From contig CP099839.1 of assembly GCA_030062745.1 (NCBI GenBank), forward strand, positions 14,926,044 to 14,990,043: a DNA stretch of 64,000 nt, read 5' to 3'. Positions 10,387 through 52,308 of the stretch are shown piece by piece. Origin of the DNA: Capitulum mitella. Lineage: Eukaryota > Arthropoda > Thecostraca > Pollicipedomorpha > Pollicipedidae. The translations under genes and the position numbers were made by a program. Under the pieces are notes generated by a model, which was not told the origin of the DNA, made no database searches, and was given only the letters and a program-made list of their open reading frames with translations. How positions within the stretch are numbered: the first letter of the stretch is position 1; every line of letters begins with the position of its first letter.

Positions 10387-13300
10387 TCAGTCGCCCAGGT
10401 CCGAGTCTCGATCGCCGATGACGAACAGGAACTGGAAGGCCAGTGCCAGCAGGCCGGTGCCGATCAGGTCCCCCAGCTGCCGGCGCAGGGGGGAGTTACA
10501 GTGCTGAAAGGGGGTGAGTCCGCCGCCACTGCGGCATGGAACAAACTGCGGCCACCTGACCGCATATTCCGACGCTCGCGCGCAAGCAAAACCACAGCCG
10601 ATGTCCGCACGCGAGGACGGAGATTCGCAGTTGAAACATTCCTCAGTTTACGTAAAAAAAAAAAAAAAACACGCCAGGTGCCAGCTCGGTTGCCCTACAG
10701 TGAACAATGTGGTCGTCAAGTCGTGTTTCGCGTGAAAAACCGTACACTGCACCCGAGGATCGGGTCTCAAAACAGCCCAGTCGCCCGTGCCATTCAGTGC
10801 CGCCGCCTCGCCCGTCACGTCGTCGCGAACTGGATCGGCGCGTCCGGTTCGAGCACGAAGCCGTGCCGGCGGCAGAAAGCTCGTGATTCGGCGCTCACGC
10901 GTCACGTACGGCCGTCAGGTAGGGGATGGCCGAGTTGTCCGGGTCCACGCCGTTCTTCCACATCCAGTGGATCATGCAGTGCGCCACGTACAGCAGCACG
11001 ATCACCTGCGACGGCGGACGGGGTCAGAGCTCGTCCCATTGTAAAGCAAACAGGCCGACACCAGGCAGGAGTCCGGACCCTTAAAGACATATGTATGCAT
11101 CATAACAGGATTGACGCATTACGATCGACACACGACAGCTGAATTACCCAACAGTGACATCTGCGAAAACTCACACGCACAGGGAACCCGTAAAGATAAG
11201 CTGTTACTGAGGGTGACGCCGGCGCACCTCCAGTCCCCACATGTGCCCTGACGCCCGAGTCTCGGAGAATCACGGTCGACGGCTGACGCCGGCCAACGGC
11301 GCCATTCAGTAGCGGCTGACGTCAGCGCCAGCCATGCCGCGCCGCGACGCCGACCGTCAGCAGAAACCACGGCCCGTCCCGACAGCCGGTCTGCGGCCGC
11401 CAGCGAGCCGGCCGAGCTCTGTCGGCCCCGCCCCGGCCGTCCGCCGCTGGACCGGACCAATGGGCCGGACCACTGGACCGGACCACTGAACCGGGCCACA
11501 GGACCGGACCACGGGGCCGGACCACAGGACCGGACTACGGGACCGGACCACTGGACCGGACCACTGGACCGGACCACTGGACCAGGCCACTGGACCGGGC
11601 CACAGGACCAGACCACTGGACGGGACCTGGTCGCGGTCGTCCGCCGCTGGACCTGACACCGGCCCAGCGGCCCCGCTGACCTGCAGCAGGGCGGCGCTGT
11701 TGTACACCACCAGGAACATGGGCGTCAGCGAGGTGTGGCCGGCGCGCAGGTAGCTGATGCTGTAGGTGAACAGCAGGTGGCCGGGCACCACCATGCTGAG
11801 CAGCACGCGCGCCGTGCGCGAGTGGCCGCCTGCCGGGCACGGGCGGGACCGGGTCAGCCGGATGCGGGGACGCTGGCAGACGTGACACGGTCCAGCCGCA
11901 CCGCCTGCGCCGTCCCCTGTCCGGTGAAACACTGACCACGGCCGGATGTGCGCTGGTGCGCGGACGCTGGGTCAGGAGTCATAGCTAAACTGAAGCCCGA
12001 TTATTTCCACGTCCCCAGTCCCAGAGGAGACGGGAAACCGGAAACACATGTAGGCCGTTTAATATTTTTCACCTAAAGCAACGCAACCAAACTCAAAAGA
12101 GGCCATAATGTTCCGATTTTGTGCGGCCAACAGGTATGAGGCCATCCTGCCGGCAGCCGACAACAGGCCAATATCTATCGGGTACGCCAACAGCACGCTA
12201 ATGGGCACACCTGAACGACTCAAGTGCCGTTTTTATCCACTCAGCCCGCCGGCGCCGGCAGCGGCGCGACCACCTGCGGGGGAGGGGCCGCACCTGACTG
12301 GCAGAACACCGAACACGGGGTCATGCAGACGTCGAGCGCGCCGGGCGGGGCGCCGCGCGGCCGCTCGCCCGGCCGGCCGGTCCGGTGCAGCGCCGTCGAG
12401 ATCCGGCTCGCCTGCACAGCCACCAGGTTGCCGCCGACGCCGTTGATGACGGGCTGGAAGACGGCGACGCCCTCGTACGCCGACACGGCGAAGTCCAGGA
12501 TGAGGCCGCCGGCGCTGCGGCGGGGCGGACGGGCGTCACGTGGCGGCGGGGCTGGCAGAGGCGGCCGGCGGCCCGCACGCCCGTAACAGCCCGGCAACAC
12601 AAACCGATATCCACCAGCGCAGGAACCTTACGACCAGTTAGCCAGATCAAGCAGAAAAAAAACCCTGCTGGCAATCGCCGTTCACTGATCCCCACGCTGA
12701 GAGGCCTCCCAGCCGCCGCGGGCCGTCCGGCGCGGCGCCGGCGGCGGACGCACACCTGCTGATGAGCACTGAGAGGCCTTCCAGCTGCCGCGGGCCGTCC
12801 GGCGCGGCGCCGGCGGCGGACACACCTGCTGATGAGCACTGAGAGGCCTTCCAGCTGCCGCGGGCCGTCCGGCGCGGCGCCGGCGGCGGACACACCTGCT
12901 GATGAGCACTGAGAGGCCTTCCAGCTGCCGCGGGCCGTCCGGCGCGGCGCCGGCGGCGGACACACCTGCTGATGAGCACTGAGAGGCCTTCCAGCTGCCG
13001 CGGGCCGTTCGGCGCGGCGCCGGCGGCGGACGCACCTGCTGATGAGCATGGCTGCGATGACGGGCGTCCAGCCCTCGAGCAGCACCACCCGCGTGTACTG
13101 GTTCCGGTACGAGATCCAGGCGAACACCGGGATCAGCAGCAGGTACACGGCGATTATTGATGGCGCTAGCCACGGGTCAGGTTCTGTCGGCGGACCGGCA
13201 CACGCGAGTCGGTCGCCCGCACGGCCACGCCCGACGATTGGCCTTCACATATGGTAAGACACTGGCAAAACCTCTCCGGAAACGCGAACCACAAATGAGA

Positions 13301-15724
13301 GAAACAGTTGCAGGCGAGAGACGAGGAAAGACGAGGCAGGCACAAGTACCAAACGCTAACAGCCCGCTAGTAAAAACGAAACAAAAAGTGGTTATCTTGA
13401 CAAGTGAACACATCGACATTCCGGAAGCGAATAATTGGCCTTTTTGTACGACGATGATGCGGAACAAGCACGCACAGATGGCGGCGCACGTGCCCATCGC
13501 AGACCCACCAATCGCCCTGTAGAGAAGTGACGCTATCGAGGACAGGAGGGCCAGCGTGACCAGATCGCCCATGCTGGCCGCTATCGGCGTGGCCACGTTG
13601 TCTGGGTTTATGCTACATCGCTGCGATAGCGTGATCACTAGGATCATCACCGTCCCTGCGGCACATCCGCGGCTTTTGTCAGCGTCCCCAAAACGGCGAC
13701 TACCACCGCCGTCCCTGTGACATATTCGCGACCACTGGCAGCGGCCCCCAAAACAGATGAACCGCGACCACCACCGTCGTCCTTGTGACATATTCGCGAC
13801 CACTGGCAGCGGCCCCCAAAACAGATGAACCGCGACTACCACCGCCGTCCCTGTGACATATTCGCGGCCAATGGCAGCGGCCCCCAAAACAGATGAACCG
13901 CGACCACCACCGTCGTCCCTGTGACATATTCGCGGCCACTGGCAGCGGCCCCCAAAACAGATGAACCGCGACTACCACCGCCGTCCCTGTGACATATTCG
14001 CGGCCACTGGCAGCGGCCCCCAAAACAGATGAACCGCGACCACCACCGTCGTCCCTGTGCCATATGATAGTTCGCTCCCGTCTTTGAGGTACATGACGAC
14101 GACTGCCACCATACTCAAACCCCACACAGGGTCACCGCCGTTGCTTAAATACCACACAGTGTCACCATTATCACTGAGACATCAGTCAGCGTCATCGCTG
14201 TCCCTGGGGCACGAGACGGCGGCCCAACGGCAAAACGACACGCGATCGGCTCTTTACGATACGGGTCGATCAGGCTGGCGACCGCCAACCCAACGCCAAG
14301 CTTCGGTTGTTGCAGGTTAGCAGCGGCTGTTCAAAGCCACGCTCCGGACAGAATCACAAGAAAAGCTTTACGCGGATAACACGGTTACTTTGCAGTGCGG
14401 TACAATATTTCCCGACAGCAGAAATATGGCATGCGTGTAACTCCCTCACAGTAGGTCCCGCTGCCCGCTAATTCATACCGAGTATGAGACTGGCCAGAGA
14501 GGCGGTGACGACGCTACTGGCACACAGCAGCAGCGTGTGGTGGATGTTGAACTCCCCGTCCGGAATCCAGCCCATCACTACCGCCGCCGTCGACGCCAGG
14601 AAGCCCACCACTATCGCCTGGCACTGCGGGCGGCGGCAGGCCGTCAGCTCGGCCACCCGACACCGCGCCGTCTGACCGACGAACGGCTCGGCTCACGGTG
14701 CCGATCCCCTGTCATCGGCTCCGCAGACGGTCGACACCATGTTATCCGGAATCGGGACAAGTACGAAAAACGTGTGGCAACGGGACAACTATGTTTATAC
14801 AATGTCGCAGTCAAAATCCCCGGAAATGGAATATAATGAAGTTGCATTCACCAGCATGTATGCTGCAGACAGCTACCCCATTAAATACGTATGACGCAGG
14901 ATCGTTCATCGACTGAAATTCAACCATCTTCGGCATCACAATTCTTCACAGATATTGGAAGCTGTTCACTAAACTGCACCCGCTGCTGCCAACACTACCG
15001 CTGTGACTGTGCCGTAACAGCACACACCTGGATGAGGCCCATGTTGCTGAGTATCAGGCTCCACATGGCGTGAGGCTCGTCCATGCGTCCCAGGTTAGCG
15101 TGTGTGCTCAGTCGTGACGCCAATGTCATCTCCAGGTTCCCCTTGAGCCCGAGCAGGGCCGGCACCAGGATGAACACCTCCGTCACTTCCGTGAACACGC
15201 GCCAGTGCTGCCGGGGAGGCGCAGAACATCTCGGTCACCGTACGGTGAACGCTGTAGACGGGATCTGCGCCTGGATTTCAAATCGTTTTACAAGGAGGTC
15301 AAACTAACAACCAAATGTAAACGTGAAGGTCATCAGCTTGCATGTCCGATGCCGGAAAGGCACGGTTTACGGAACATTAAAAATGCGCTACGTCACTGCC
15401 GTATCCGGCGGCACACGGACGCTCCTCTCCGTGTCGGCCTCCACTGACCTGGACCACGTCGAGCACGATTCCGGCGCCGACCATACCGAAGCCGGCCACC
15501 AGGTAGGGGAAGAACACCTGCACGGCGATGGAGAACCAGGTCTCCTCGAGCGAGCGCGGTTTGCGCAGCTCCATGAGGCCGTCCTCGGCGTCGGCCAGCT
15601 GCTCCAGCTCATCCTGAGTGGTCAGCGGTATCTGGTCGTCGTCGGCCAGGACGGACATCTCCACCGAAGACGCCATGGCCGCCGCTCGCCGCCGCCGCGG
15701 CCCGTCCTCACCGGCCGCCGCCAT
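10387..15724 (-). CDS. SLC41A1: SLC41A-type magnesium transporter, complete, 9 coding exons
   Basis: Membrane Mg2+ transporter or exchanger of the SLC41 (MgtE-related) family; human SLC41A1 works at the plasma membrane. Coding exons, in order on the minus strand: 15724-15449, 15207-15028, 14623-14479, 13655-13509, 13165-13036, 12514-12294, 11829-11681, 11005-10910 and 10476-10387. All introns are GT-AG, all phases match, and the sum is 1434 nt (477 residues; human SLC41A1 has 513). Both MgtE-like halves are present. The first has [17 protein letters not shown] and [13 protein letters not shown] followed by GDL. The second has [17 protein letters not shown] and IPYLTALGDL. The tail [11 protein letters not shown] matches vertebrate SLC41A. 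The start is the first ATG of exon 1; a second in-frame ATG lies at 15676. Exon 5's donor and exon 4's acceptor are built into tandem arrays. It could equally be called SLC41A2-like; the family assignment is secure, the paralogue is not. Confidence 0.95.
11446..11650. repeat. GGACCGGACCACT minisatellite in SLC41A intron 7
   Basis: Degenerate tandem repeat with a short unit (about 11-12 bp or multiples), variants of GGACCGGACCACTGGACC. It begins about 30 nt inside the intron after exon 7. It makes the Gly/Pro/Val-rich minus-strand frames seen here, which are not genes. Confidence 0.9.
12698..13040 (-). repeat. 70-bp array carrying copies of the SLC41A exon 5 donor
   Basis: On the minus strand each unit contains GCTCATCAGCAG followed by GTGTGTCCGCCGCCGG, against GCTCATCAGCAG and GTGCGTCCGCCGCCGG at the real exon 5 end. 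The real junction ends the exon at 13036; equivalent junctions occur at 12966, 12896, 12826 and 12756, exactly 70 bp apart. The last unit has a 2-bp insertion beyond the junction. The reading frame from exon 5 stays open through the array. Using the third extra donor (+210 nt) would keep the frame; the others shift it. Confidence 0.95.
13640..14072 (-). repeat. 68-bp array carrying copies of the SLC41A exon 4 acceptor
   Basis: About six units. On the minus strand each unit ends TATGTCACAG and then GGACGGTGGTGGTC; the genuine acceptor reads GATGTGCCGCAG and then GGACGGTGATGATC. Upstream intron sequence (TTTTGGGG, GCTG, GCCGCG) also aligns, so the true splice site is the terminal, diverged unit. 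Equivalent exon-start positions are near 13714, 13782, 13850, 13918, 13986 and 14054. All frames are open, which creates decoy ORFs. Confidence 0.9.
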
Positions 15725-17084
15725 GGCCGATGACGTCCTGGCAACGTCACAACGGAAACACTGTCGTAATGTTGCAAGTTACACCGCACGAGCCATTCCA
15801 TAATGAAGGGCTACATGTCATCTCTTTGGCACGTACGGTAAATCATCTCTTTACTGAAGACTTATGCACCACAATGAACACACAGCACTCACATCACATC
15901 GTCAATACAATAAGAGTAACCAACAAAGCAAGTAGCAAATGCCGACGATAAAACGTTACACACAGCTGTCATGGGAAAAATATTTTTCCAGGTATACTAC
16001 TCTTGCGCATCCTCAAGCAGTTACGACCCTACACAGAAGACAGGGGTGCAAAGGTCCCCTGACACAATGTGAAAGGTTTCTGGGCAGCCTTAAATATGGT
16101 GGTTGGTGTCCATTAGGTACAGATGGTATAAATGACGGTGTGAGGGGATTCAGCAGCATACATGCAACAGCGAACGATAACAGGTCCTTATACAATTATT
16201 TGATTTTTCGTCTGCCCTCCAAAGAGCCCAAAATGCAACAAATGTTACTGATGACCCAACGCAGCATTGATCTACAAGAGTAAAATGAGAGTAATAAAAC
16301 TACAAGTAGAATTTTTTGTATCTAAAAAGAGTGGCAACCTTATAAAGAACCTCAAATGTGGTCAGGCAAGTCGGTGCTCGTGCCCATCGATCCTTTGGGA
16401 TGTGCACCATATAGGTGACAGCGCGGTCACGCTGGACTGGGGGTTGACCACTTCCTCTAACTCACGAACGGCTGGTCGCACGATAAAAATAAGCACACCG
16501 TTCGAAAGCTCGTGACAAGCAAAGCTCGAGATTGGTGTGATTTTTAGCTTTGGATAATATGTACGCCACTTACGTCCTACATATCTTTTATCACAGCCGA
16601 TTGCATGAAACCGAGAAGCGGACTTTTTAATTAATTAATTAAAGCGGACTCTAATTAATAAACTCTAGGCACCAATGAACACGCAGAAGTCCGCAAATGT
16701 CGACACACGCCGAATTTCTCTGATTTGTTTAATACATACGCCGAAACGTTGAGTTAAAGACACGACGATTTTCGCGCCGACTGCCGGCGGGTGCCGCGGC
16801 CGGACGCGGTATGAAATGAACAGGAACTAACTCTGGCGTATCTTTAGGGCTTTTCATGCAACATTTCCCAGTCCTAGTGGTTCTTGTGATGGTTTGTGAT
16901 GCTTATGGCGGAGCTTTATTCGCGAGTCTGTTTATTTGCAAAACATGCAATTTTTTAAACTTTTCGAACTTCTTGGTATTACTCGCAACTGTAAGAGCCA
17001 GTTCTACCATTCTCTACCCGTTTTGAGAAATTCATCGCCGATTTCGACGGCGGTGCATTTTGGCTCATAACAGTTATTCGTAAC

Positions 17085-17412
17085 CTGACCTCAGGTCAAT
17101 GGCTGGAAGTCAATGATATTTTGTCCATCGATGGTAACGGGATGTCTGCATCACCTTGTGCTAAAAATGTTATAAAAAATCCCGCCAAATTCCGGAAAAA
17201 CGACATATCTTCAAAGTAGGCCTGACCTTAGGTCAGGAAAACTCCGAAAAATCTGAGATAGCAGATCTGTTGCATCCATCACGACCTCTATTCCTAAAAT
17301 TTCTATGGTGATGTCTTGTTCCCAGAAAAAGTTGTAGGGCGTTAAACTTTTTTGGACACTGATCCACTTGATCTGACCTAGGTCAGGCACCTGACTTGAC
17401 CTGAGGTCAACA
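17085..17412. promoter_or_regulatory. Cluster of inverted AGGTCA half-sites
   Basis: Four near-palindromes of the TGACCT/AGGTCA nuclear-receptor half-site with 0-1 nt spacing occur within about 330 bp: TGACCTCAGGTCA, TGACCTTAGGTCA, TGACCTAGGTCA and TGACCTGAGGTCA. The motif is known as an inverted-repeat hormone-response arrangement. The same hexamer is also the core of a satellite at 57-58.5 kb, so a repeat origin is equally possible. Confidence 0.45.
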
Positions 17413-17819
17413 TCTTGGCAAAAGATCTAAAAATGATCAAGCAAAAGGCACACAAAGTTTCGCGTCGCTACGTTCGTTCGTTCTCCTGCAATCTTGGAAA
17501 AAACTCAGGGGGGCCAACCGTCCCCAGTCGGGGGCGGGTTCAGAGACCATCAGACAATTTGATGAAAAAGTTCAGGGACTAAAGCTACTATTACGAAGTG
17601 ATTTCGTACTTCAAATTACTACAAAAAATCTTTTTCAGGTTGATGAGAGGTTTAAAAAGTTTAATGAACTCAATTCATGCTGATTACTTGGGATGACTTT
17701 CATCACTGGCAACAGAACATCCAAATTTAGCCCTTTTTCCATGCAATGGATTTTGCTTGAAATCCATGCAGGAGGACGATTCCACGGGCGGGTACAGCGG
17801 CTCCATTTGGGAAGGAGCC

Positions 17820-18022
17820 AAACCAGTGGCTGATCCCCTCAATCTGCCAGTGGCTGACCCCCCTGGATCTGTCAATGGCTGATCCCCTCTGGATCTGACA
17901 GTGGCTGATCCCCCTGGATCTGCCAGTGGCTGATCCCCTCTGGATCTGCTAGTGGCTGATCCCCCTGGATCTGCCAGTGGCTGATCCCCCTGGATCTGCC
18001 AGTGGCTGATCCCCACCCAGAT
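17820..18022. repeat. 25-bp satellite (CAGTGGCTGATCCCC...)
   Basis: About eight tandem copies of a 25-26 bp unit with the core CAGTGGCTGATCCCCCTGGA. It adjoins a tRNA-like SINE head on the minus strand (18036-18118), so it may be the expanded body or tail of that SINE. Confidence 0.9.
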
Positions 18023-18035
18023 CAGCCAATCTGGG

Positions 18036-18118
18036 GGGGCGGGAATCAAACCGGGCTGGTTTCAATGAAATGAAATGGCCTAAATAAAAGCTCACAATCT
18101 GAGCTAGCATTTCATCAA
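18036..18118 (-). mobile_element. tRNA-like head of a SINE
   Basis: On the minus strand an A-box-like TAGCTCAGATTGTGAGC (18093-18110) is followed about 40 nt later by a B-box-like GGTTTGATTCCCGC (18039-18052). The fold is not that of an intact tRNA, so a tRNA-derived SINE or a decayed tRNA pseudogene fits best. Confidence 0.4.
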
Positions 18119-23156: not shown

Positions 23157-24845
23157 TCACGCCTGCTTGCAGTTGGACCAGGACTTGACGTTGAGGCAGG
23201 CGCGTGGCTTCCGTCGTCTCGTGGAGGAGCCGTTCTCAGACGGCGCCTCTGCGCCGCCGGCCCGGGCCGCCTCCCGCTCTGTGGCCAACCACAGCCGCCG
23301 TAAGTTGTCACGTCAGAGCACAGCACCATACCGACCTGACATGTCACGACAGTACTCACAATGCACTTCGTCAAGCGTGCGAAAGCTTCGTATTTTCTAC
23401 AACGAATGTTTCATTATTCTGTCGGTGGAATACTCAAGTAAATACACGAAATAATCAGTTTTGAAGTTCGGCCATTTATTTCTAACCGCTCATCAGTCGC
23501 TCCGCGAATTAATCACTGCCACCTGTGCCGCCACTCGGCGAGTAAATTACTGACCGTTACAACCTGGCTCTGTGACTGAATTGCTGACTGTTAATAAGTC
23601 ACTGGGTGACTAAGTTACTGACGGTTACGCCGCAGCTCAGTGATACAAATAATGGCAGTTAAGCTCCAGTTGTTGGATTGAACTGCTGACGGTTAAATCC
23701 TCGCTCGGTGATTGAATTACTGCCCGTCGAGCTGTCGTTCTGTGGTTGAATTACTTACCGTTGGAATCTCGTTCTGTGACTGGATTCATGGTGGTTAATT
23801 CGTCGCTCTGTGACTGAATTACCGATCGCTGGACTTTCGTTCGGTGACTGAGTTACCAACCGTTCAGCTGTCGCTCTGTGACTGAATTACTGGACGTTAC
23901 GCCCTCCCTCTGTGATTGAATCACTGACCGTTGAGCTGTCGCTCCGTGATGTACTCCTCGCTGCTGGTGTTATCGTCGTCTGGCCCGTAGTGCAGGTCGC
24001 GGATGTAGGGAAGCACCGTCAGTGCGTGGCATTCACTGCCGTTTCTCGGCGGCACCGGCACACGTCCGGACGCGGGCGGCTGCTTCTTCCGGAACCAGCT
24101 GCGCGCGAGAGGACGTCATCAGGCGATAGCGGTGAGAGGGTCTGCAGGCAGCCCTGGAACATCTGGCTGGGACCACCCGGGTATAAACAAAAACAAACAC
24201 GGCCACACTCTTGAGTCACAACAGCCCACTGCAGCAGATGGCTATACGCTCGTAACCAGATAAGTGGGACATCCGAAAGTATTTAAAACTACTGAGGGGT
24301 GCCAGCAAGTGCCTACAGCTGGCTAACGTTACCAGCACAGAGCACGAGCGTGCCTTTACATGAAATAGCCGTCCGTTGGGCTGGCTCGTGGCGTGGTGCG
24401 TAATCGGTGCTACTAATTACTGGACCGATCTGTGATGCGGCGTGCGGTCGCTAATGTAGACTGGCTAACGGTGCCGTGCGCGGTTGACACTGCTGATGTG
24501 ACACGTGGTGGAGCGCGCAGTCGAAGCGAGCGGTCTACTGGACTGACTCGTGCTGTTGTATCTGGGCGACACCCAGCCGATGCTCTGGCTCCTTGCGCAG
24601 CATCCCTCGTAGCAGCGAGGCAAGCGATGGCCCGACCGAGTCTGGAATGTGGAACTCGCCCCTACTGATGTTGTCGTACAGCTTGAACACCGTCTCGCCC
24701 TCGAACGGGTACTGGCCAGTCACAAAGTTGTACCTGCCGGACAACAAACGCATCAGCACGACGCAACACTATCTTCGACGTCGAAGCCCTAGACTGAGGC
24801 TTTTCAGAAGGCATGCATAATGTTTTTCAGAGATGGATATAAGTT

Positions 24846-24895
<50 letters not shown>

Positions 24896-27830
24896 TTATC
24901 TACATGTAACTGAGCTCAAGAGTTTCTGGTATAACTATCTGTCCCTGTTCTGCTTGTCGGTTTCCTCTTTAAATTTAGAGTGACATTTTCATTTTCTTCT
25001 CTGTATTCAGAATGGTGCAAAACAAAGGTCTAACGGTTCCAATATTGTCTTCTGAGCACAATACCTACTTTCCAGAGTGAAACAGCTGACCAAGTCATCA
25101 CAAAACCATCCTAATGTCAATATCTAAGAAAAGGAGCAGTTTTCGATGGCAGTCTGTGGTTTTGCGTCATTTCGTTTCCTTGCAATTTTGCTTGCTATAA
25201 TTACCATGCAATTTTACACCATGAATGTTGTGTTAAAGTAAAACAACTCATAAATGATTAATGTAATGACACCAAAGGTCACCTAGCATAAACGTCTATC
25301 CATTGGCAAGGACCTATTGTTATAATGAAACATAACACGTGAGCTTCTCATCAGAATTTTTCAGCTGACTGGCTTGATTTACGCCGGACCGCTTTTTTAC
25401 TGCAATGCGATTTGACGTGAAAATACGCTCTTCCGATGACAGTTCGCATGTAATAATATATATGACACAATTCTGGATAAAAATACCTGCAACTGCCACG
25501 CACATAAGTCATACTGGAAATGTAACACAATGCATGTTATAAAAAGTGGCCCAATCCTTGACGTGTCGAAAAATGTCTTTGCATAACAAAAGAGAAAAGT
25601 ATGCATGATCCAGCAACTGGTTCCCGTCCGTGGCCATCATGAAGAAACTTGAAGATTTCCACCGAAATTTACCACAAGGTTCATGACAAATATTCTCTTC
25701 AATGTAAAATGAGCAATTCTTTATAAAAGAAGGTTGAAACGCAATCCTTCTACTGTTGTCTTGTGTGACAATAACACACGGAATATTACGTAAGCATATG
25801 GTTTAGAATTAATGTGTAAAATTAATGTGCTTGTGTCACACACAGTTTTCGTGGTACTAGAGCAGCACTATTTCAAAATAATTTTCAAAGAGAACGGCAA
25901 ATCCTTAATAATCAAATCAACACACTAAATAAATAAAAAGCTGCATTCATGAATCAACAATCGCCAATCTAGGCAAAGCGAAATACCGAATCAATAAACA
26001 TCCCCGCAAACTTACAGCGTTACGCCACTGCTCCAAATGTCCACCTTGTAGCCCGGAAACGTGTCACTTCCGCTGGCGATTTCCGGCGGCTGGAAGGCCG
26101 GAGAGCCCTGGCTGACGGCGATCTCGTCACTCCTGCGGTACCGGTCCAGCTCCTGCGGCCGAGGACCGTGTCAACACCGCCTGCACGGGCTCAAGTGGCG
26201 CACAGACGTCCTCTGCCGTAACAGGCCGAGGCCAGCGCACCGTCTGTGGTAGGGTACCGCTCAGGAGGGCAGTTTGCACGGGCGGTCAGCGGCGGCGACT
26301 CTCACCCTGATGTCTAAAAAAACGCGGGGCATCAGAAATACACCCAACACTCCGGGGAAGAGAGCGAAGAAGCTCCACGCACAGGAGCACGCGGTTCTGG
26401 CCCACCGAACCATTGCTAGGTGGCCGGACGCCTGCAGATAGCACGGGCTGCGGGATGTCCGGGTGACCGGTGGCCTCACCTCGGCAGTGCCCAGGTCGGA
26501 AATCTTCAGAGTCATGTCCGACGTGAGGAGCAGGTTTGCTGGCTTTATGTCATTGTGCACCACAGCCTGACTGTGCAAGTACTCCAAACCAGTCACCAGC
26601 TGCACAAAGTACCTGCAAACAAAGCAGAGCAAAGCACGATGATGTGACTGTACCTGAAATATACCTCAATATGTTTGAGGAATGCTACAAGCATACTCCC
26701 AGGAAAAAAACGCCAATACAACATCATATAGGTATTACTGTACGCCAACTCACATTCAGCACTTCTTGCTAAGGCCCCACACAACACTACTACAGTCGGC
26801 CAGAAAATACGAGATGCCAAATCGACATGGAAATATGGTTAAAACTGGTTCAAAACGAGGAGAAGAAAATCAGAAGTGCCATACGCCAAGAAACAATGGT
26901 GACCTTCTCCATGGCAAAATGTCCTGTCTCGAGGAATTTGATTGATTTGACAGCTCTGAATACATCCATACTGAATACATCAGTGTTCTGTAAAACATGT
27001 GACTTCAGTAATGACACTAACCCGTGAGCTTGCCACACCGGAAATCGCTTCTCGTGGGCTTGGTCGAGCATCTCTTTCAACTGGCATACACAGAATTCCA
27101 AGATCATGTATATCTTTTGCTTCTCATCATTATGGAGAACGTCAAACAGCCTCAGGATGTTTGGGTGCTGCAGCCGGTTCAGCAGTCTTATCTCCCTAAA
27201 AAAAAAAACGCGAGATGAGCGTGAGTGAAAAGAAGTGAGACGGACTTCTGCTGACACACTGGCAACAGTTACGTTACTAGTACAAGCTTAGAATGCGAGA
27301 TCAAAGACAAGATATAGCAAAATCATGTCCCACAAAATGATAAATGCCATTTGTCTGGACCCCATAGTGATGCTGTTTCAGGAAGTGCAATGCATACAAA
27401 ATGGGTTCCACTGAAACATTCTAAGATGGCAGACCTTCACTCTGCCGCCTTACCTCTGGAGATTCTGTTCGCCGTTCAACTTCCGTCGGAGTTTCCGCCG
27501 TTTGAAAATTTTGACAGCCCTCCGTTCAAGAGTGTCCTTGTCCATGCACTCTTTGACCTTGCCGTACGCGCCTTCGCCCAGCAGATCGCCGAAAATGTAG
27601 CGTCCCACCAGCTTGCAGCGTTTCCGTTTGTTGCGGTAGATGATTTCGCTGGAGGGCACGCGCGTGAAGACGCCCATGCCGAGACCGTCGTCCCAGTCGT
27701 CGTCGCCGCCGTCGAACGGGGCGCCGACCAGGGCCAGCGAGTCCGGCATGTCGCCGACCGGCGCCAGCTCAGCCTGCACATGGTTGGCCGCGCTCGGGTC
27801 CAGCAGGTTGCTGTCGGGCTGCGAGGCCAT
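23157..27830 (-). CDS. STK11: STK11/LKB1 serine-threonine kinase, complete, 7 coding exons
   Basis: Master kinase that, with STRAD and MO25, phosphorylates AMPK-family kinases. Exons on the minus strand: 27830-27454, 27195-27022, 26612-26480, 26152-26016, 24733-24548, 24098-23929 and 23278-23157. All introns are GT-AG and in phase; the sum is 1299 nt, 432 residues (human 433). Visible motifs are the glycine loop GEGAYGKV at 85-92, AVKIFK with Lys107, [11 protein letters not shown] at 203-213 with Asp205, ISDLG at 221-225, and [15 protein letters not shown]. Then come [11 protein letters not shown] and [12 protein letters not shown], typical of LKB1. The last exon ends SWSNCKQA, matching the human SACKQQ farnesylation end with a serine at the same place. 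The exon 6 donor (AACG then GTCAGT) lies in a 34-bp minisatellite. If it is not used, translation stops 2-3 codons later at 23921 and gives a 394-residue form without CaaX. Confidence 0.96.
23475..23945 (-). repeat. 34-bp array carrying copies of the STK11 exon 6 donor
   Basis: About 13 degenerate units of 34-35 bp (plus-strand core TGTGACTGAATTACTGACCG). On the minus strand the unit includes AACG and then GTCAGT, which at 23929/23928 is the actual exon 6 donor. The last residues of exon 6 (ERQLN) are themselves read from repeat sequence. Several other units keep the GT. The unit near 23759 reads AACG and then GTAAGT, a closer match to the donor consensus than the real site. Confidence 0.9.
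24848..24892. repeat. (TA)n microsatellite in STK11 intron 4
   Basis: A run of alternating TA of about 45 bp ending in TGTAC, inside the 1.3-kb intron between exons 4 and 5. Confidence 0.97.
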
Positions 27831-30249: not shown

Positions 30250-30284
<35 letters not shown>

Positions 30285-31170: not shown

Positions 31171-31178
31171 TTTTTGAC

Positions 31179-37296: not shown

Positions 37297-37380
37297 ATAC
37301 ACACACACACACACGGACACACGCACGCACACACGCACACATGCATGCACACACACATGCACATACTCACACACACAGTG
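37297..37380. repeat. (CA)n microsatellite
   Basis: Interrupted CA tract with CGCA and TGCA variants, about 80 bp long. Confidence 0.97.
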
Positions 37381-42863: not shown

Positions 42864-45800
42864 ATGTCTCTGAACTCAGAAAGATTCCCATTAACCTCAG
42901 GACTCAGGAACAAGCACAATGAAAATGATGGATTTAAAGTCATATTTGTATGTTTTGTGGTATTCAGTATTGCCATTACAGTTGCTCTGATTGTGCAGAT
43001 TTACTATGGGGAACCCGAGGTAAGAAAGCATTTGTGCTTGATGCAGTCAGCAAGTGCTTGTTTTTCCTGGTTATTTTATGTTAAAGTTACTTATTTTGTG
43101 AATATTCTTAACAAAAAAAAATCTCTGATTCTTCGTATCTAATGTCGAGTTTCATGAAATGGGCCGATTGGCGATATTTTAACACGACCTTGCCTTTCCG
43201 TCAGGATGGTTCATTTTGAAAATATGTATTATCGGAGGCGTAAGAAATTGACCGGTGCGCCAGACCCGGCAATCACACGGTGTTCCCCGATGTGCGTCAG
43301 GTGGTTCCGCACGCGGCCGTCTCCACCGACCACAAGACCTGTTCGGGCCTGAGCACCGAGCTGATGCGGCAGGGCGGCTCGGCCGTGGACGCCGCCGTGG
43401 CCGCCGCCCTCTGCATGGCCGTCGTCCACCCGCACTCCACCGGACTGGGCGGGTGCGTATGCTGCTGGCGCCCATCCTGCCGCTTGTCACTGAGCAGAGC
43501 TGAAGGCTATTTATTCGCATAGCAAGCATCCTCACAAGAAATGTCTTGAAGTGCTCACATTCGGTGTTTCGTTTGAGTTATGCGCCATCCAGTTGCTACT
43601 ATATGCCTGCTTCCCCTTTGGGGATGTTGTTGACTGTTACATCCTTCAATGAAATAAAACGAAAACAAAGCACTGAGCGTGCATCGTCCACCCCAAGCAC
43701 TTTCGGCATAGTTTCGTGGATAACTACGTGTGCGGTCTTGGCGGTCACAGTGTGCTCGTTTCCACCGACAGCGGCGGTTTCATGTTGATCCACGACCACG
43801 CGCGGAACCGGTCCTCGGTGGTGGACTTCCGGGAGACGGCGCCGGCGGCCACCGACCGGGCGGCGAACGTCAGCGGGAGCGGGCCGCGCTCGGTCGGCGT
43901 GCCCGGCCTGCTGCGCGGCCTCGAGCTGGCCCACAAACGACACGGCCGCCTGCCCTGGGCCGAGCTGGTCCGGCCCAGCGCCCAGCTGGCTAGGTCAGAC
44001 GTGCCGAACGCGCCCTCGGAGGGCGCGGTCTGAACGCCCTCGGAGGGGACGGCTGGGAGGCTTCTGAGGGGACAGTTAGAAGGCCTTTTAAGGGGACGGT
44101 TAGGAGGCCTCTGAAGGGACACTGAAGTTTGATAGGAGAGAGTGAGGAAGTCTCTGAAGGAACACTTTGAAGGCCTTTAAGGGGACGGCTAGGGGGCGTC
44201 TGACAGGACATTTAGAAGACCTCGGACGGGACAGCTAGAAGGCCTCTGATGGGACAGTTAGGAGGCCTTTGAAGGAACAGCTAGTAAGCCTGTGAGGAGA
44301 GAGTTCCTGTGGGGAGGATCAGCCCGCTGTCGGAGGAACGGTCGGCGCTGTCTTTGATGGTCGGGACGCTTTGCGGGACCCCGTCATTTGGGTGCGGAAA
44401 TCACGCCCTCTGATGGAAGGGTTTTCACATCGTCTGATCGGCAATCAGGAAGCCCCGTTAAGTGGCTGCCAGCGTGCCGTCTAAACTGGAACTGTCTGCA
44501 CGATATGTGTAGGGAGCGGCTCGCTCTCCCAGTTGTTCCGAAGGCGAGTGATGGCGCTGGCCCTCCCGTTCTTTGCGGCAGCCCTCGCGTGTACTCCCAT
44601 CGGAAGGTTTAGGACTAACACTTGTGAACTCTGTAGCGGCGAACATACCTCGTGAAGGGCCTTCTCCGGGGCATTGTAAATGCACTGACCTCGGGGACGG
44701 TTCAGTTTTCAGCGGTCCAATGTGAATCCGGTGCGCGAGCGGCTTGTTTCGCGTGATCCCATTCACTAGCCAGGCGTGCTCTGTTTGGGTGCGCTGGCCT
44801 GTGCGATATCGGATATGTAGTCTGACTCTTTTCCAAGATCTGCAAGGGCTCAGTAACCATCCCATAGCAAAAATAATCGAAGCGTGTTCAAAAATGGCCA
44901 TCCGCTTATCCCTCGGAGGACGGGTCGTGTACGTTGCCGTCAGTAGTGAGCAGAATCTCTGGCTGTTTTGTCTGCATTTTATGTCATATTGTTCACATTT
45001 GGTGCATATCCGCATATCCGCATCACAAACATCACCATGCTGGATAATCGATTATCACATTTTCCTGACCCAAACAAACAAATCTCCATCACGACGCTGA
45101 CGGCCGCCGTCGTTGTGCCGTCGACAGGAAGGGCTTCGCCGTGAGTGAGCAGCTGGCGGCGGCGCTGGCCGACCACCTGACCGTGTCGGAGGCGCGCGGC
45201 TCGGCCGGCCTGTCCGTGTTCGCCGGGGAGGCCGGCCTGCTGCGGGCCGGCGACGCCCTGCTGCTGCCGGACCTGGCCGACACGCTGGACCGGGTGCAGG
45301 CTCGCGGCGCCGACGGTGAGACGCCGCCCGACGCCCGCGGCGGGACGGCCCTCCGGCCAGCCGGGACAGGCGGCGGAGCGGCGGGTTAGGGGGCCCTTTG
45401 GCATATGTCTCGGGCACGGTTGGAAATTTTAGTTCTTTTTTTTTGTTTTTGTTGTCGGAGTATAATTTTTGTTTTTGAGCGCAAAATTTTGTAAGGAGCA
45501 TTACTGGTTTAAGTTGGCCTTCTTTGTGTAAGTCAGTTATGCCGTTATACCTGCTTACTGAATGGAGACAGTCATTTGCTTGCAGAGTTCGAAATTCATC
45601 AACATGGTTATAATGTAGGTTTTTGGTTTAGGCACAAGATCAAACTGTGGAGCATGAAACATTTTTGGAGCAAAAGTTTTCTGGTGTTCCACAACACCAA
45701 AAAAACAACACCTTTTCCAACCGTGGTCTCGGGCGTATTTGGACCCTTCCAGAGACCACGTCGAGATCGGTTTCCCGCTGTCGCGATTAGCGGCGGACTC

Positions 45801-48800
45801 GCGATGACGAGCGGCCGACCGCAGCCTGCTGTGGCGGCCCGCCGTGCCGTGGATTCTGTCGCGGTCCTCGCGTCCGTTCGCCAAGATTGCTATGAAAAGG
45901 AGCATCTTGGTGTTCGTCATGCAGTGTGGCGCGGTATTCTGCAGTGTTTGAGGGTATCTGGTATGAGCCGGTTTAACTCCGTGTGCGGGGACATTGCGTG
46001 CTCTGGCCGATGTCTGTTGCGCGGTGTGACCGGGCTCCTGTGCCCGAATCAGCTGCCCCGTTTCTCTCCGTTCGACCTGACCCGGCCCTGTGGCGGTCCG
46101 TGTGCGCGTTGTTCGGCGCCGTGGCCGCGCGTATTCCGGCCGCGCTCCGTGCCCACGCCCGGCCGCCCCCGCCCGGCAGCGCTGTACGACGGCCCGCTGA
46201 CGGCGCCGACCGTGGCCGAGCTGACGTCAGCGGGCGGCCTGCTGACCGCCGACGACCTGGCCGGCTACCAGCCGCTCCAATACGAGGGACTGCTCAGGGA
46301 CTACGGTCAGTATTCGCCACTACCGGTCACTGTCGTGGGTCGTCACCAGCTGGCAAAAATCCAGTTACATCCTAAGTCGAAAAAAGATGATAGTTTGAAT
46401 AAGTAGAAATGAAAACGGCGAGGGACTTACTTAAATTACATAAAAAGGCGAGTTAAAAAAAGCCATTGGGGGTTTCTTCTATGCGCGTCGTCCTTTGCAG
46501 AGGAATAAAGGCTAATCTCGATAATGGGTGAGAGCGAGTGATCGTTGGTAGACAGTGGTCAGCGGTGGCGAGTACCACTAGTCCCGGATACGGTACTGAA
46601 GCATTGCGGTGGCTCAGAGCGGCGCAGTTATCAGGAGAGCCAGGATCTGTCCAGAAACTGGCCATCGGGGGCCGTGGTTGGTTTCCCCTACATGAAAACT
46701 GACCATGACGTTTGCTGTCCTACGTAGTGGGGTCTACAACTGCGTCATCTTCGTTTGGGATTGAGGCGAGGTACTGATTTTTTGCTGAGCCGCGCCTTGG
46801 ACTGGACCTTGGCCGGTCGGTATCCACGACATTTATAAAGATAGATGCCTTAAGCGCGATGACGCGGTTGATAGCTCAGTCGGTGGGGCTCAGGATACCC
46901 CATCGTGACAAAGCGGGCTCGTGTCGCGTCGTAACGTGACATTTAGCTCGCGGGTTAGCTGACAGCTGGCCAGTAAATACCAGTGACTGCCGCACGGTCG
47001 TGCCATATTCGTCACGACACGCTGCGTTTGTAGCAAAATCGGCAAAAACCCGAAATGCGCAGTCGGGTGTGAAGCTCAGAGTCTGTGCAGCAAGTTTCGC
47101 CATAGCTCACGCTCTAAACCCGAACATCATCTCAGGATATCATTCTGATGGAGAAAAGACAGTGCGATGGAGGTTTGAATGTATGAACGTTATTGCGACG
47201 TTGACCCACCCGACATTAAACAGGTTATTTTGTATTGCGGACAGCGGACGATTTATTTACATGAATTCTTGTGGTTGTGGCATGCAGTTGCCCGTTTGAT
47301 GTGCGATGACCATCTAAAAGCTTTTTACTGTAAAACGTCTTCTTGGACTTTACGTGCGAAACCGGTTTTACCACATCACTGTTTATGTTCAAGGGTGACA
47401 TTTCGCTTGATGACGCCTTATACGGCTTACAGCTGGGTTTGTGAATTGCCCTCCACTCAGTTCGAATGGGGTTGATGGTCTGGAGAACCTCCATGGTCCG
47501 GCAACCTCATGGAATGAAGTTAATGGAATCTAATAGGAAAAGAAACGGAAATGACACAAGTTAAGGGTTTGTCAGGTTTGGGGAATGTTGGGCGAGCTTT
47601 CCAGGAACCAACTTGTAATGTTAGGCATCCGAAGGTTAAACAAGATTTATCCATGGCTACTTAGATACAAGTATGCATGGAATGGATGCCACTCCGCAGA
47701 GCCCAAGTTATGTTAACTCACCGGACGAGAGTTGGTTGCTACCCTCCCGTAAGGGTTTTTTTCAAGCTGCTGGCCAAGAGCCTAAGTCAAGATCCTGAAG
47801 TTTACAAATAAAAATAAATAAAAAAGCTCTCCATTTCCGGTCCAAAAATGTAGTACCAGGTCATGTCAGGCCACTGAGTCATGACTTCATTACTGATGGC
47901 CTGCTAGCCGTTTTGCAGACAAGAGCCACATTTCGGCTTCTTTCTGAGGAGCGACGAGATATGAAGCCAGTTCTCAATACAGGGCTTAGTGCTATGGTTA
48001 TGCTGACTTATGGTTGTCGCTTCCGGCTGACTTACGGTTATGACTTACTGCTGACAACATATCCACGTTTGAAAAGCCAGTGACCTTCTCATCGTTATGT
48101 GAGGTGACTGTCCTTGTAAGACCTCGCAATACCTTGAAACTTCTTAAAAAGTATTTCCTGTGTACGATTTATTTGATGACGATTGTGCTGCCTTTCTCAA
48201 TGATCAGAATTGTAGTGCGACATAATGAAATACCATTTTCGGCATTAGCAGCGTAACAAAGGCTGAAAATGACACGCGACCTTTCGTTGATCTTGACCTC
48301 GAAACGAAAAAGCAGTCATTGTCTATAGCGAGTAACCTGTTTTAAAAGCAAGTGTTCAGCGCCATTGATAACACTGCCTTGAGCTGCTTAGCCTCCCGAA
48401 TGGTCTTCAGGTTTCACCACAGGTATCGGATTGGTACCGCGTCACCGAAACTGACGTCGTGTAGCCGCCGTCCCAGCCTGAACGTCAGTGGAGCCGCCCT
48501 GACGGCCGCCTGTCTGGCCCTCGTCGAACAGCGGACCGGATGCCGCCCGCCGACAGCAGCTGTCCCACGTCACCCGTCTCCCCGACAGCACGCCCTCACA
48601 CGTCACCCGTCTCCCCGACAGCACGCCCTCACACGTCACCCGTCTTCCCGACAGCACGCCCTCACACGGCACCCCTCTCCCCTGACAGCACGCCCTCATA
48701 CGCCACCCGTCTCCCCTTGACAGCACGCCCTCACACGTCACCCGTCTCCCCGACAGCACGCCCTCACACGTCACCCGTCTCCCCCGACTGCAGCCCTCAC

Positions 48801-51800
48801 ACGCCACCCCTCTCCGTCAACAGGCAACTTCTCGGTGCTGACCACCGCGGCGCCGTCGGCCGGGCCGGCTCTGCTGGCCGCCCTGGAGCTGGTGTGGCGC
48901 GTTAACGCCAGCCGGGCGCCGGACGCGGCGCTGCGCTACCACCGCGTCACGGAGGCGCTGCGGCTCAGCATGGCGCGCTTCTCGCTGCTCGGTCAGTGCT
49001 GGCCCCGCGGTCACGGCCGCCGTTCGGGGAGCAGGGCTGTTTGGGGTAATGACGCGTGGTATGGAATTATCTTGATAACCACGAGCCGTTTTCAGTGAGG
49101 AATGATCGGTTTGCATGCCGTTGTGTGAACAGGAAATTTTCTGCTTCCTTTGAGCTGGTGGGGATACAAGACTGTCCTCGCCCACAATAAGCGTTGATCA
49201 TGTGTGACGGTATCGATCTTTTTTTAACAGTCGAATAATCTTGCCATGAAAAAATATTGACAGGAGTCAGCCATGTATGATTTCACCGTTAGGTTCCGCT
49301 GTTCGGCGGCTTTTCCTTTGTTTTGCCGTCTGAGGAGTCTGTGCGTCTCTGTTGGCTAGTAATTTGCCGTTTTTGATGTCGTGATATGTTTAGTCTCTGG
49401 TAGATGCCTCTGTTGGCTAGTAATTTGCCGTTTTTGATGTCGTGAAATGTTTAGTCTCCGTTAGATGTCTCTGTTGGCTAGTAATTTGCGGTTTTTGGCA
49501 TTATGATATGTTTGGTCTCTGGTAGATGTCTCTGTTGGCTAGTAATTTGCGGTTTTGGCATTGTGATATGTTTAGTCTCCGGTAGAAGTCTCTGTTGGCT
49601 AGTAATTTGCGGTTTTTGGCGTCGTGATGTGTTTAGTCTCAGGTAGATACACTCCATTCATGATGGGTATTTCCGTTCTCTGTTGCACGACTTTGGTTTT
49701 TTGGTGGGCGTCTCCGACTTCTGGTGGACATATCCGTTCTCTGGTGGACGCCTCCGATCCCCGGTGGACACCTCAGATCTGTAGTGGGCGTCTCCGACCT
49801 GTGGTGGACGCCCTCGCTGCCTGGCGGGTGCGCGGCCCGCGTTGGACGTGTCCAGACCGCCGCCAGGTGACCCGGGCTCGGCGGCCGAGGTGACGAACGA
49901 CACCGCCTTGCTGCTGGAGGCCGACACGCTGGCCAACCTGAGCTCGCTCATCTCCGACCAGAGCCTGGTGGAGGCGAGCGGCCTGCCGCCGCTGGACACG
50001 CCGGCCGCCTCCCACGTTTCCGTCATCGACCCCGGCGAGCTCTACGTCAGCCTGGTCAGGTGCGGCGCCGCCGGGTCTCCGGCCCCGGGGGAACGAAGGC
50101 GGTGGTCAGCCTGGTGTTACGGCCGGAGCTGCCCCGCCTCGTCTGTGGGGTCTTAAACATGAACCCTACTGTGGCTGTACATGCTAAGAAACAAAACAAA
50201 CCCCGAACTCAGGAATTGCTGCGCCACTGCATGGGATGTGATCAAAACGTGTATTGGGTCAGCATAGTAATTGCTTATGCCCGTGTGTTTGTGACCTTTA
50301 GATGTTATACTTATCGAAAAACGTATTTTCCCGTCAACAGTGGCCTTGGTTCGTTCTTCGGTTCCAAGTTCCGCACCACGGGCGGCATCCTCTTCAGCAA
50401 CGCTATGTCGGCGTTCTACGACCCGCCGCTGTCGTCACTCGGCACTCTGAACGTGCCGGAGCCCGGCCGCCGCCCGCTGAGCACGCTCTCCCCGGCCATA
50501 CTGATGTCACCCAAGGTACTCCCTCCCGGCACCCTCAGCTCGCCGTCCCAAGCCGTACTGGTGTCACCCAAGGTACTCCCTCCCGGCACCCTCAGCTCGC
50601 CGTCCCAGGCCATACTGGTGTCACCCAAGGTACTCCCTCCCGGCACCCTCAGCTCGCCGTCCCAAGCCGTACTGGTGTCACCCAAGGTACTCCCTCCCGG
50701 CACCCTCAGCTCGCCGTCCCAAGCCGTACTGGTGTCACCCAAGGTACTCCCTCCCGGCACCCTCAGCTCGCCGTCCCAAGCCGTACTGGTGTCACCCAAG
50801 GTACTCCCTCCCGGCACCCTCAGCTCGCCGTCCCAGGCCATACTGGTGTCACCCAAGGTACTCCCGGCACCCCATCACGTTCTCCCAGGTCAGACTGGTT
50901 TCGGTCAGTTCGTTCGTCACCTCCGCCCGTCCCATGAATGGCTTTTCTGAGGTGTGAAGGCTGAGGTGAAAAGTCTGATGCCCTTGCAGACATCAAACGT
51001 TCGTCATCAGACTTAGTCACCATATTTTATTATCAGACGTTGTCAGACCCTTTGTCGTTCATCGCCCGTTCATTGGTTCCGTTTGCTATTTTTTATGTAT
51101 GCATATGTGTGCGCATAATGTATGTGTGCGCACGTACCTGCACGAGAAGGTACCTGCGAAGCCGAACTGACGAAACAGAAGGCCAAACCGAAAGGGATGG
51201 GCGTGGAAGCAGACCGGTACACGCGGAGTTGCCGTCAATTTCGACCTCTCGTGGTCAGAATGAGAGGAGATGTTTAAAGTAGACGTAGGCTTTCGTGTCC
51301 GATCCTTGTACCGCATGTTTCTTCTCCGTTATACGAAGATGGCAGGACAGCGGAGGCTTTGTTATTCAATATCCGCCCGCTGTCTGCTTTCATCTGTCAT
51401 CATTTCCACTGTAGCCTTCGCTCTTCTGTTCGGCTTTACGAGTCCGTCGTTATAGGGCCTAGCAGCGGCACTCTTCTAGGTGGCCTACGAAAATTCATCC
51501 GTAACTGACGAAAAACCAGTTGTGCTTTTAGGCCGAAAAAAAACGTGAAATCCAGCTGATGGTGCGACAATCATGATATCCTAAACAAGCCGCAGGCTTT
51601 CGTTTTGAAGGTATGCCGAGGCCGGACGGTTTTCAGCCTGGACCTGTTCCGTTGACTCGTATCAGCCCTTTACGAGCTGTTTCCGTCAGTTCATTGTGAG
51701 CGCTGTCGGTGCTGTGAGCGCCGGGCGGAGGAGCACGTGCCGCCGCCGCTGACACCGTCCTCTCGGCAGGTGTGCGGTCTCCGGGTGGTAACCGGCGGCA

Positions 51801-52308
51801 GTGACGCGTCCTTGCTGGCCCAGGCCGTCGTCCGCCTGCTGGACCCGCAAGAGAACCTGACCTCGTCGCTGGAGGCGCCGCGGCTGCACGTCAGACAGGA
51901 CTCGGCGCTGCTGGGCGTGGAAGGTCAGCGTCGGGCCGCACCGCGCCGCGCCGCCGCCCGACGCGCAGGCTGGTCGCGGCAACGTCGTTTTTGGGCCGCT
52001 TAGCGATGATGAGTAATGGTTTATCACATTAAGAGGAGCTCCATGTTGCGTTTAGCCCATGTTCACGTCGCGCTGTGCACGTGGAGCGTGTGTGTTGCTG
52101 TGCAGAGTGTGGTCTGACAGCTGGCGTCTCCTCAGCGGACCGGCCCCTGCAGCCGCCGGGCGCCGTGCTGCGCGCCCTGGAGGCGATGGGACATCAGAAC
52201 CGCAGCGAGGATCGGCCCTACCCCAGCTGCAACGGCATCACCAAGTACTTTGATCAGCTGAGCTCGCACTCGGACTCCCGGGGCGGTGGCACCGCCGTCC
52301 GCTTCTGA
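42864..52308 (+). CDS. GGT7: GGT7-like gamma-glutamyltransferase family protein, complete, 10 coding exons
   Basis: Type II membrane protein of the gamma-glutamyltransferase (glutathione hydrolase) family. Exons: 42864-43019, 43301-43452, 43772-43993, 45128-45315, 46180-46305, 48824-48991, 49867-50059, 50341-50515, 51770-51923 and 52136-52308. All are in phase; 1707 nt, 568 residues. The first exon gives a 28-residue cytoplasmic tail and a membrane segment ending VALIVQIYYGEPE, very like human GGT7 (VALVMQIYFGDPQ). Then follow QGGSAVDAAVAAALC, STGLGGGGFMLIHD, VDFRETAP (the substrate-binding Arg), GDPGSAAEV, TGGILFSNAM, PGRRPLSTLSPAIL and VVTGGSDAS. At the nucleophile site, where active enzymes have TSTIN, this protein has VSGLG, so the catalytic Thr is missing, as in GGT7. 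The ATG at 42864 is chosen because an in-frame stop lies upstream in the same exon, whose acceptor is at 42826/42827. Human GGT7 has a longer N-tail. Confidence 0.95.
44028..44300 (+). repeat. ~23-bp degenerate minisatellite in GGT7 intron 3
   Basis: About eleven variants of GGACAGTTAGAAGGCCTCTG begin some 35 nt beyond the exon 3 donor. The exon end CAGCTGGCTAG loosely resembles the units (ACAGCTAGAAGG), but unlike the other arrays the donor itself is not clearly copied. Confidence 0.85.
45590..45740. repeat. Dispersed repeat, copy 2, in GGT7 intron 4
   Basis: Partner of 39770-39960 in the same orientation. It contains the hairpin GGTGTTCCACAACACC followed by a run of A and AACAACACC. Confidence 0.55.
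46865..46940 (+). mobile_element. tRNA-like sequence, probable SINE head, in GGT7 intron 5
   Basis: GATAGCTCAGTCGGTGGGGC matches a tRNA D-arm/A-box, and GGGCTCGTGTCGCG about 30 nt later matches a weak B-box. The remaining arms do not form a clean cloverleaf, so a SINE or pseudogene is preferred over a working tRNA. Confidence 0.45.
48555..48823 (+). repeat. 33-bp array of acceptor-like units before GGT7 exon 6
   Basis: The units read CACCCGTCTCCCCGACAG then CACGCCCTCACACGT: a pyrimidine tract plus AG in every copy. The AG ends at about 48588, 48621, 48654, 48688, 48723, 48756 and 48793. The true acceptor, CACCCCTCTCCGTCAACAG before 48824, is the last, slightly diverged unit. Confidence 0.9.
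49325..49650 (+). repeat. 61-bp minisatellite in GGT7 intron 6
   Basis: Five units built on CTCTGTTGGCTAGTAATTTG, then a TTTTTGG segment, TGATATGTTTAGTCTC and GGTAGATG. Confidence 0.95.
49690..49866 (+). repeat. 21-bp minisatellite ending at the GGT7 exon 7 acceptor
   Basis: About seven variants of GGTGGACGCCTCCGACCTCT. The final stretch TTGGACGTGTCCAGACCGCC runs straight into the acceptor (CCAG before 49867), so the splice site may again be a terminal unit. The resemblance is weaker than at exons 6 and 8. Confidence 0.75.
50480..50875 (+). repeat. 57-bp array carrying copies of the GGT7 exon 8 donor
   Basis: The real donor is ACCCAAG then GTACTCCCTCCC with the exon ending at 50515. The same junction recurs every 57 bp, ending at 50572, 50629, 50686, 50743, 50800 and 50857. 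Each unit is about 35 bp of exon end plus about 20 bp of intron start. Because 57 is 19 codons and no stop occurs, every unit stays in the exon 8 frame and would encode VLPPGTLSSPSQAVLVSPK. Confidence 0.95.

Follow-up and report, generated by a model that had tools for sequence, protein, structure and literature searches.

Arrays of tandem repeats at splice sites, known as mirages, have been described in amphioxus for Adh3, troponin C (TnC), the globins Gb6 (acceptor side) and Gb9 (donor side), and PGBD5 (both sides) (PMC3087553, PMC3902484). Regular splicing was reported for Adh3 and the globins, and the number of units differs between two Gb6 haplotypes. Here we report arrays of this type in a barnacle, Capitulum mitella, in a window of 64,000 nucleotides (assembly GCA_030062745.1, contig CP099839.1, positions 14,926,044 to 14,990,043; this contig is C1 in our numbering, i.e., C1:14926044-14990043), which contains three donor arrays and two acceptor arrays in the genes SLC41A, STK11, and GGT7. 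We favour, with some reservation, their interpretation as mirages, i.e., minisatellites that would have arisen by tandem duplication at exon-intron borders, seeded in GC-rich (guanine plus cytosine-rich) DNA and with silent copies. A first-pass annotation of the window, made from its letters alone, had referred to donor-overlapping minisatellites in amphioxus and had supposed that acceptor-side arrays would extend that case. The latter had, however, already been described for Gb6 and PGBD5 (PMC3087553, PMC3902484).

The arrays were located with Tandem Repeats Finder (TRF), and the one in STK11 was lengthened by wrap-around alignment. On the minus strand, the donor of SLC41A exon 5 lies in an array of five 70-bp units (12697..13048), with the true GT at 13035-13034, 13 exonic nt per unit, and decoy sites at +70, +140, +210, and +280. 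At the acceptor of exon 4 of the same gene (exon start 13655), a 68-bp array occupies 13656..14065 (13692-14065 as delimited by TRF) and reaches the junction via a diverged last unit of 59 nt; six copies of the AG, one displaced by one base, lie upstream of the true acceptor. STK11 exon 6 (exon end 23929), also on the minus strand, has a 34-bp donor array at 23478..23955 (TRF 23691-23950) with approximately 22 exonic nt per unit, and the 13 units of 34 nt past the true donor fill approximately 450 nt of intron 6, which is 650 nt long. On the plus strand, GGT7 exon 6 (exon start 48824) is preceded by a 33-bp acceptor array at 48550..48823 (TRF 48550-48815) that matches the junction on the intron side only, AG included, and GGT7 exon 8 (exon end 50515) carries a 57-bp donor array of 6.5 units at 50495..50865 with approximately 25 exonic nt per unit, six decoys sharing the 9-mer AAG/GTACTC with the true donor. 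In all five arrays the true splice site is that of the exon-proximal unit, which bears out the original claim that in at least five introns the repeat unit holds the splice site and the true site is the end unit. Within 64 kb, three donor and two acceptor junctions are thus occupied by arrays.

Homology of the units to the junctions was scored against 2000 shuffles, using 40 intronic and 30 exonic nt, and compared with the other 45 junctions. On the intron side, the five true junctions score above all of these others, and none of the shuffles reached their scores. On the exon side, the score was reached by none of the 2000 shuffles for STK11 exon 6 and GGT7 exon 8 and by 15 for SLC41A exon 5. 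SLC41A exon 4 fails this exon-side test, its score being reached by 443 of 2000 shuffles, and becomes significant only when the register is locked (7 of 20000). GGT7 exon 6 is not homologous to the unit on the exon side, where all 2000 shuffles equal its score. A boundary-spanning unit, homologous on both sides, is therefore seen at SLC41A exon 5, STK11 exon 6, and GGT7 exon 8, with SLC41A exon 4 matching on the exon side in register only. The exonic nucleotides that match the unit consensus number 13 of 13 for SLC41A exon 5, 21 of 22 for STK11, and 21 of 25 for GGT7 exon 8; farther into GGT7 exon 8 the homology of the unit is not significant (392 of 2000 shuffles). The exonic part of the three donor units encodes residues common to other barnacles. 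This part is conserved coding sequence, and the direction of copying was therefore from exon to intron; the three donor arrays grew out of exon ends.

The junctions derive from rebuilt gene models, i.e., SLC41A, an SLC41A1-like Mg transporter (10387..15724, minus strand, nine coding exons, Pfam MgtE), STK11/LKB1 (23157..27830, minus strand, seven coding exons, PDB match to STK11 with an E value of 1.3e-137), and a GGT7-like gamma-glutamyltransferase (42864..52308, plus strand, ten coding exons, supported by Pfam). All 23 introns of these models have GT-AG ends and the joined frames are open. The best protein matches of all three genes are barnacle proteins: the joined window exons of SLC41A are 88% identical to Pollicipes pollicipes P0121 (483 residues each) and those of STK11 89% identical to P. 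pollicipes P0241, and the GGT7-like protein is 71% identical to the Amphibalanus amphitrite orthologue P0001 (568 residues each). At the array-bearing junctions the alignments with the barnacle orthologues, which are predicted proteins, are free of gaps, and the expected proteins therefore contain no repeat unit; this conservation is in keeping with regular splicing at the array-bearing junctions.

Several other arrays in the window come close to a junction. The array upstream of the GGT7 exon 7 acceptor (20-bp unit, 49702..49810, plus strand), put forward earlier as a possible extra case, is only weakly related to it: the intron side was reached by 15 of 2000 shuffles, rank 3 among junctions, and the exon side by 1292 of 2000. 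The 49-bp arrays at 1605-1992 and 5010-5878, before candidate exons at 2012 and 5898, had also been proposed as acceptor cases. They were rejected as such, since the clear match stops approximately 20 nt before the AG (the last 25 nt reached by 601 and 634 of 2000 shuffles, the last 45 nt by none), and they are not independent of each other. With their flanks they look by eye like near-copies of a longer segment, which holds a 47-49 bp minisatellite of 8 and 18 units, respectively, and has the same candidate exon downstream. Also dropped as junction arrays after the homology test were a 13-bp array (11447..11627, minus strand), 53 nt from the SLC41A exon 7 donor and with junction homology that is not significant, a 23/46-bp array (44038..44295, plus strand), 44 nt from the GGT7 exon 3 donor and with no junction homology, and two arrays with units of 24 and 61 bp.

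The placement of arrays relative to junctions was evaluated for the ten arrays in gene spans of the window with a TRF score of at least 50 and a unit of at least 13 bp; TRF arrays scoring 30-50 or with a unit below 13 bp fall outside this set. Five of the ten contain a junction, against 0.87-1.32 expected under uniform seeding (P 0.0005-0.0026). Two arrays with 14-bp units and scores of 45 and 47 lie under the cut, and their inclusion gives 5 of 12; without GGT7 exon 6, four of ten contain a junction (P 0.006-0.022). The edge of the array is at most 60 nt from a junction for eight of the ten, against 3.4 expected (P 0.001), a test in which the STK11 array was taken as 23420-23950, beyond its alignment support, although its distance to the junction is 0 regardless. 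The enrichment at exon borders that the first-pass annotation had anticipated is thus found in the window. A systematic sample of the genome yielded two further donor arrays.

This sample comprises 28 stretches of 10 kb (280 kb; L numbers below) at fixed places in the 477-Mb assembly. A Pfam scan of 59 distinct open reading frame segments from it gave ten genes, some on weak matches: in L018, a LON plus Yippee (cereblon-like) gene rests on two matches below the Pfam cut-off, which the matches at L009:2111 and L029:9823 likewise fail to reach, and in L029 a second UCH gene was assigned from domain order. Weak matches to ColA_N (L006) and DUF1659 (L026) were discarded. Two of these ten genes, each covered in part, have donor arrays. 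In NUMB (L010) this is a 33-bp array with exon-side similarity, found by wrap-around alignment without a significance test, and in a Na/Ca exchanger (L014) a 61-bp array of 16 units that begins at the donor GT and matches on the intron side only; the second exon of the exchanger was recognised by eye, Pfam giving no match there. A candidate acceptor array was found in L016 (6285-7655), where 23 units of 55 bp end at a plausible acceptor whose exon side is similar to the unit. The array of DDRGK1 (L007) was rejected as a junction array because it sits directly past the stop codon. Two screens for exon-adjacent arrays were made, one for donors in L002-L021 and one for both sides of 59 arrays (44 from the sample and 15 from the window); their candidates in L008 and L015 were set aside upon inspection, and those in L002, L024, and L026 stay out of the counts. 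L010 also contains, at 7282-7963, a 42-bp array of 16 units that has a coding-like score in several frames and no Pfam match.

These arrays probably go back to a local tandem duplication of a short segment straddling, or starting at, an exon-intron border, which would later have been expanded and homogenised via slippage or unequal exchange. At a border such a duplication would be silent, the outermost site still defining the normal exon and the copies landing in the intron, and an equal event inside an exon would be purged. The decoys would then decay neutrally. This is what the old STK11 array shows: of its 12 decoy units, 6 have kept the GT, where mean conservation predicts 6.6, and the donor 9-mer is conserved at 0.75 against 0.74 elsewhere in the unit, so that both decay like the rest of the unit and there is no sign that decoys have been kept for use. 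The over-representation of borders would follow from a preference of the minisatellites of this genome for GC-rich DNA, which in the introns of the three window genes is found within approximately 50 nt of exons. Counting from the junction, the introns have a GC of 0.66 and 0.65 in their first and second 25-nt bins and of 0.46-0.52 beyond these; exon GC is 0.66. The 44 sample arrays scoring at least 100 have a flank GC of 0.60 against a background of 0.51, and their relative rate is 3.7 where the flanks reach a GC of 0.65 or more and 0.3-0.64 where they stay below 0.55; with GC measured 100-200 nt away, it is still 2.6 versus 0.62-0.66. If arrays are boosted four- to six-fold at borders, the expectation rises to 2.75-3.28 of the ten (P 0.10-0.19). 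Much of what is seen in the window can, therefore, be put down to composition plus purging from exons. The proposal of the first-pass annotation that exon borders seed duplication is thus one of two interpretations of the enrichment, much of which is explainable by GC-rich seeding and the silence of border duplications.

Several observations weigh against this interpretation. The placement tests concern only ten arrays in a single window, which was selected because a reader had spotted them, and at tighter distances the result is weaker (0 nt, 3 of 10, P 0.066; at most 10 nt, 4, P 0.032; at most 40 nt, 5, P 0.064). A border boost of 2 or 3 gives P 0.02 and 0.056. The splice site in use is deduced indirectly, from protein conservation with predicted orthologues. 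GGT7 exon 6 and the Na/Ca exchanger (the latter judged by eye) show no homology on the exon side, and their arrays could therefore have begun inside the intron and extended to the splice site. The two GT columns of the NUMB array are slightly better conserved, at 0.86 each, than the mean column, at 0.81 (seven units, trimmed and gapped by hand). Across 82 sample arrays, an annotation-free search for the donor motif, with flanks excluded and GC-matched pseudo-arrays as control, gave 23 against 17.7 +- 3.7, which is not significant (9 of 60). Against scrambled motifs, the same arrays gave 30 versus 17.2 (0 of 40) for matches at 7 of 9 positions and 2 versus 1.5 (24 of 60) at 8 of 9, and the pseudo-array control is the sounder of the two. 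Finally, the donor word discussed below sits in DNA with a GC of 0.47 (sample, n=8) and is nevertheless over-represented among tandem arrays of the whole genome, so that GC may be only part of the explanation.

This last point bears on the alternative that splice sites themselves seed duplication through a donor-linked cause, e.g., transcription-coupled breaks or R-loops near U1 binding, beyond GC and silence. Three tandem copies of AGGTRAGT spaced 30-60 bp apart were sought in the 477-Mb assembly, and 176 matches were found, as compared to 28 for the reversed pattern, 47 for a scramble, and 53 for the reversed scramble. Among the matches listed (C1 to C8:13.6 Mb) there are at least 24 distinct donor-word arrays, two of which, on C6 and with equal spacing, may be copies of one, whereas the scramble has 3 there and 11 genome-wide. 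The single donor word occurs 8 times in the sample, the controls 20, 7, and 15 times, and 200 scrambles 11.1 times on average, 150 of them being at least as common as the donor word. The single word is thus no commoner than its controls, and word frequency does not explain the excess of arrays. Real donors prefer C or A at position -3. In 14 of the donor-word arrays, this base, which the word leaves unconstrained, was read as C (9 arrays), A (1), or G (4). The word test shows donor-like arrays, without implying that they are located at exons, and it suggests that the arrays extend broadly across the barnacle genome. The excess despite surroundings of 0.47 GC leaves room for a further splice-site effect. 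However, the count of distinct arrays is compared with one scramble only, the word arrays were counted without their placement at exons, and the donor-motif test of the sample was not significant. Moreover, the acceptor arrays and those matching on the intron side only would need another cause, and GC-rich seeding already covers much of the window enrichment. We therefore consider seeding by splice sites rather doubtful as the explanation of the arrays described here, and it is at best tentatively possible that the splice donors of barnacles are hotspots of minisatellite birth beyond GC and silence, with copied exon borders lengthening introns at their ends throughout the genome.

Another alternative is that the arrays are functional splicing devices, in which spare sites or length variation would generate isoforms. 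The arrays had been proposed as a ready source of isoforms, but GGT7 exon 8 is the only junction where every decoy is in frame. At GGT7 exon 8 all six decoys have kept the GT, have the same 9-mer as the true site, and are in frame, each adding 19 residues without stops. The 57-nt units at 50495-50865 form one open frame with exon 8, encoding a 19-residue repeat, and a length polymorphism of the protein is possible if decoys are used. A C. elegans minisatellite has been described as over-represented near alternative splicing regions (PMC4039745). Elsewhere the decoys argue against such a device. All nine GT sites tested in STK11 intron 6 lead to a stop at residue 394, and a frameshift or stop results from 15 of 19 decoys at three other junctions, namely SLC41A exon 5 (3 of 4, the GT being kept in 4 of 4 decoy units), SLC41A exon 4 (4 of 6), and GGT7 exon 6 (8 of 9), so that the use of decoys would usually be harmful. 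A role kept by selection was rejected for the STK11 decoys on the basis of their decay, which matches that of the rest of the unit. Even for GGT7, the predicted Amphibalanus orthologue is without a repeat insert, and a stop-free, in-frame unit of 57 nt easily arises by chance in GC-rich DNA. A functional device, with variable 19-residue repeats at GGT7 exon 8, seems, therefore, unlikely.

It is highly improbable that the arrays are remnants of intron gain through tandem duplication of exonic AG/GT segments, a model proposed for amphioxus globins (PMC3087553) and some Drosophila introns (PMC2891723). The STK11 unit is largely exonic, which favours this model, but none of the five arrays joins a donor to an acceptor, each touching one intron end only. 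In addition, STK11 intron 6 looks ancient: it has the same phase and approximate place as what we take to be human STK11 intron 8 (c.1108). An assembly artefact, or a dispersed satellite family striking exon edges by chance, is the least credible explanation of all: although the copy number of tandem arrays is frequently wrong in assemblies, read duplication cannot have produced the diverged arrays of STK11 and NUMB, the units (33, 34, 57, 68, and 70 bp) are each a different sequence, those of the three window donors resemble the exon next to them, and the 70-bp SLC41A unit, the only one searched for, has five matches in the 477-Mb assembly, every one inside its own array, which rules out a dispersed family for this unit and agrees with the earlier claim that the units are unrelated and not one repeat family.

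Outside the three genes, the window has some other features. Two adjacent sets of 140-143 bp tandem repeats occur at 57272-58501, one rich in CAAGGTCA and the other in its reverse complement, and they seem to face each other. The region 55600-56900 gives the impression of a decayed retroelement, although no search was made. At 62294-63299 there appears to be a two-exon gene for a small secreted cysteine-rich protein, with splice sites that by eye are without arrays.

Mirages are a known kind of array, and in the literature found they are restricted to lancelets. No report of mirages in a barnacle or other arthropod was found in a literature search covering titles and the beginnings of abstracts, with subscription journals mostly outside its coverage, and a term search within the genome papers of P. 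pollicipes, C. mitella (PMC8416341), and Sacculina, as far as their text was accessible, turned up none. The arthropod host is, therefore, new as far as these searches show. Mirages are also a trap for gene annotation and short-read assembly, and GGT7 exon 8 represents a natural test of site choice among copies with an identical 9-mer.

A crustacean parallel, the variable tandem repeats of prawn lectins (PMC7536079), also consists of minisatellites of 30-33 bp in genes, but these are located in coding exon 2, whereas the barnacle arrays are intronic except for one exon-proximal unit. The tandem duplications invoked for intron gain at proto-splice sites (PMC2891723) likewise give tandem copies with AG/GT signals; the barnacle introns differ in carrying an array at one end, and no new intron position is evident. 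On their sequence features, the barnacle arrays can be placed with the mirages of amphioxus. In the amphioxus accounts, tandem repeats likewise span the intron-exon boundary on the donor or the acceptor side, have locus-specific units, and keep the AG or GT in many, though not all, units. Regular splicing and length differences belong to the amphioxus reports, and the barnacle arrays are known from the sequence of one assembly. The barnacle differs further in being an arthropod rather than a cephalochordate and in having five arrays within 64 kb, besides the two donor arrays of the 280-kb genome sample. With arthropod cases in several genes, the potential drivers of mirages, i.e., composition, mutational hotspots at splice sites, or mere tolerance, can now be compared in two distant animals.

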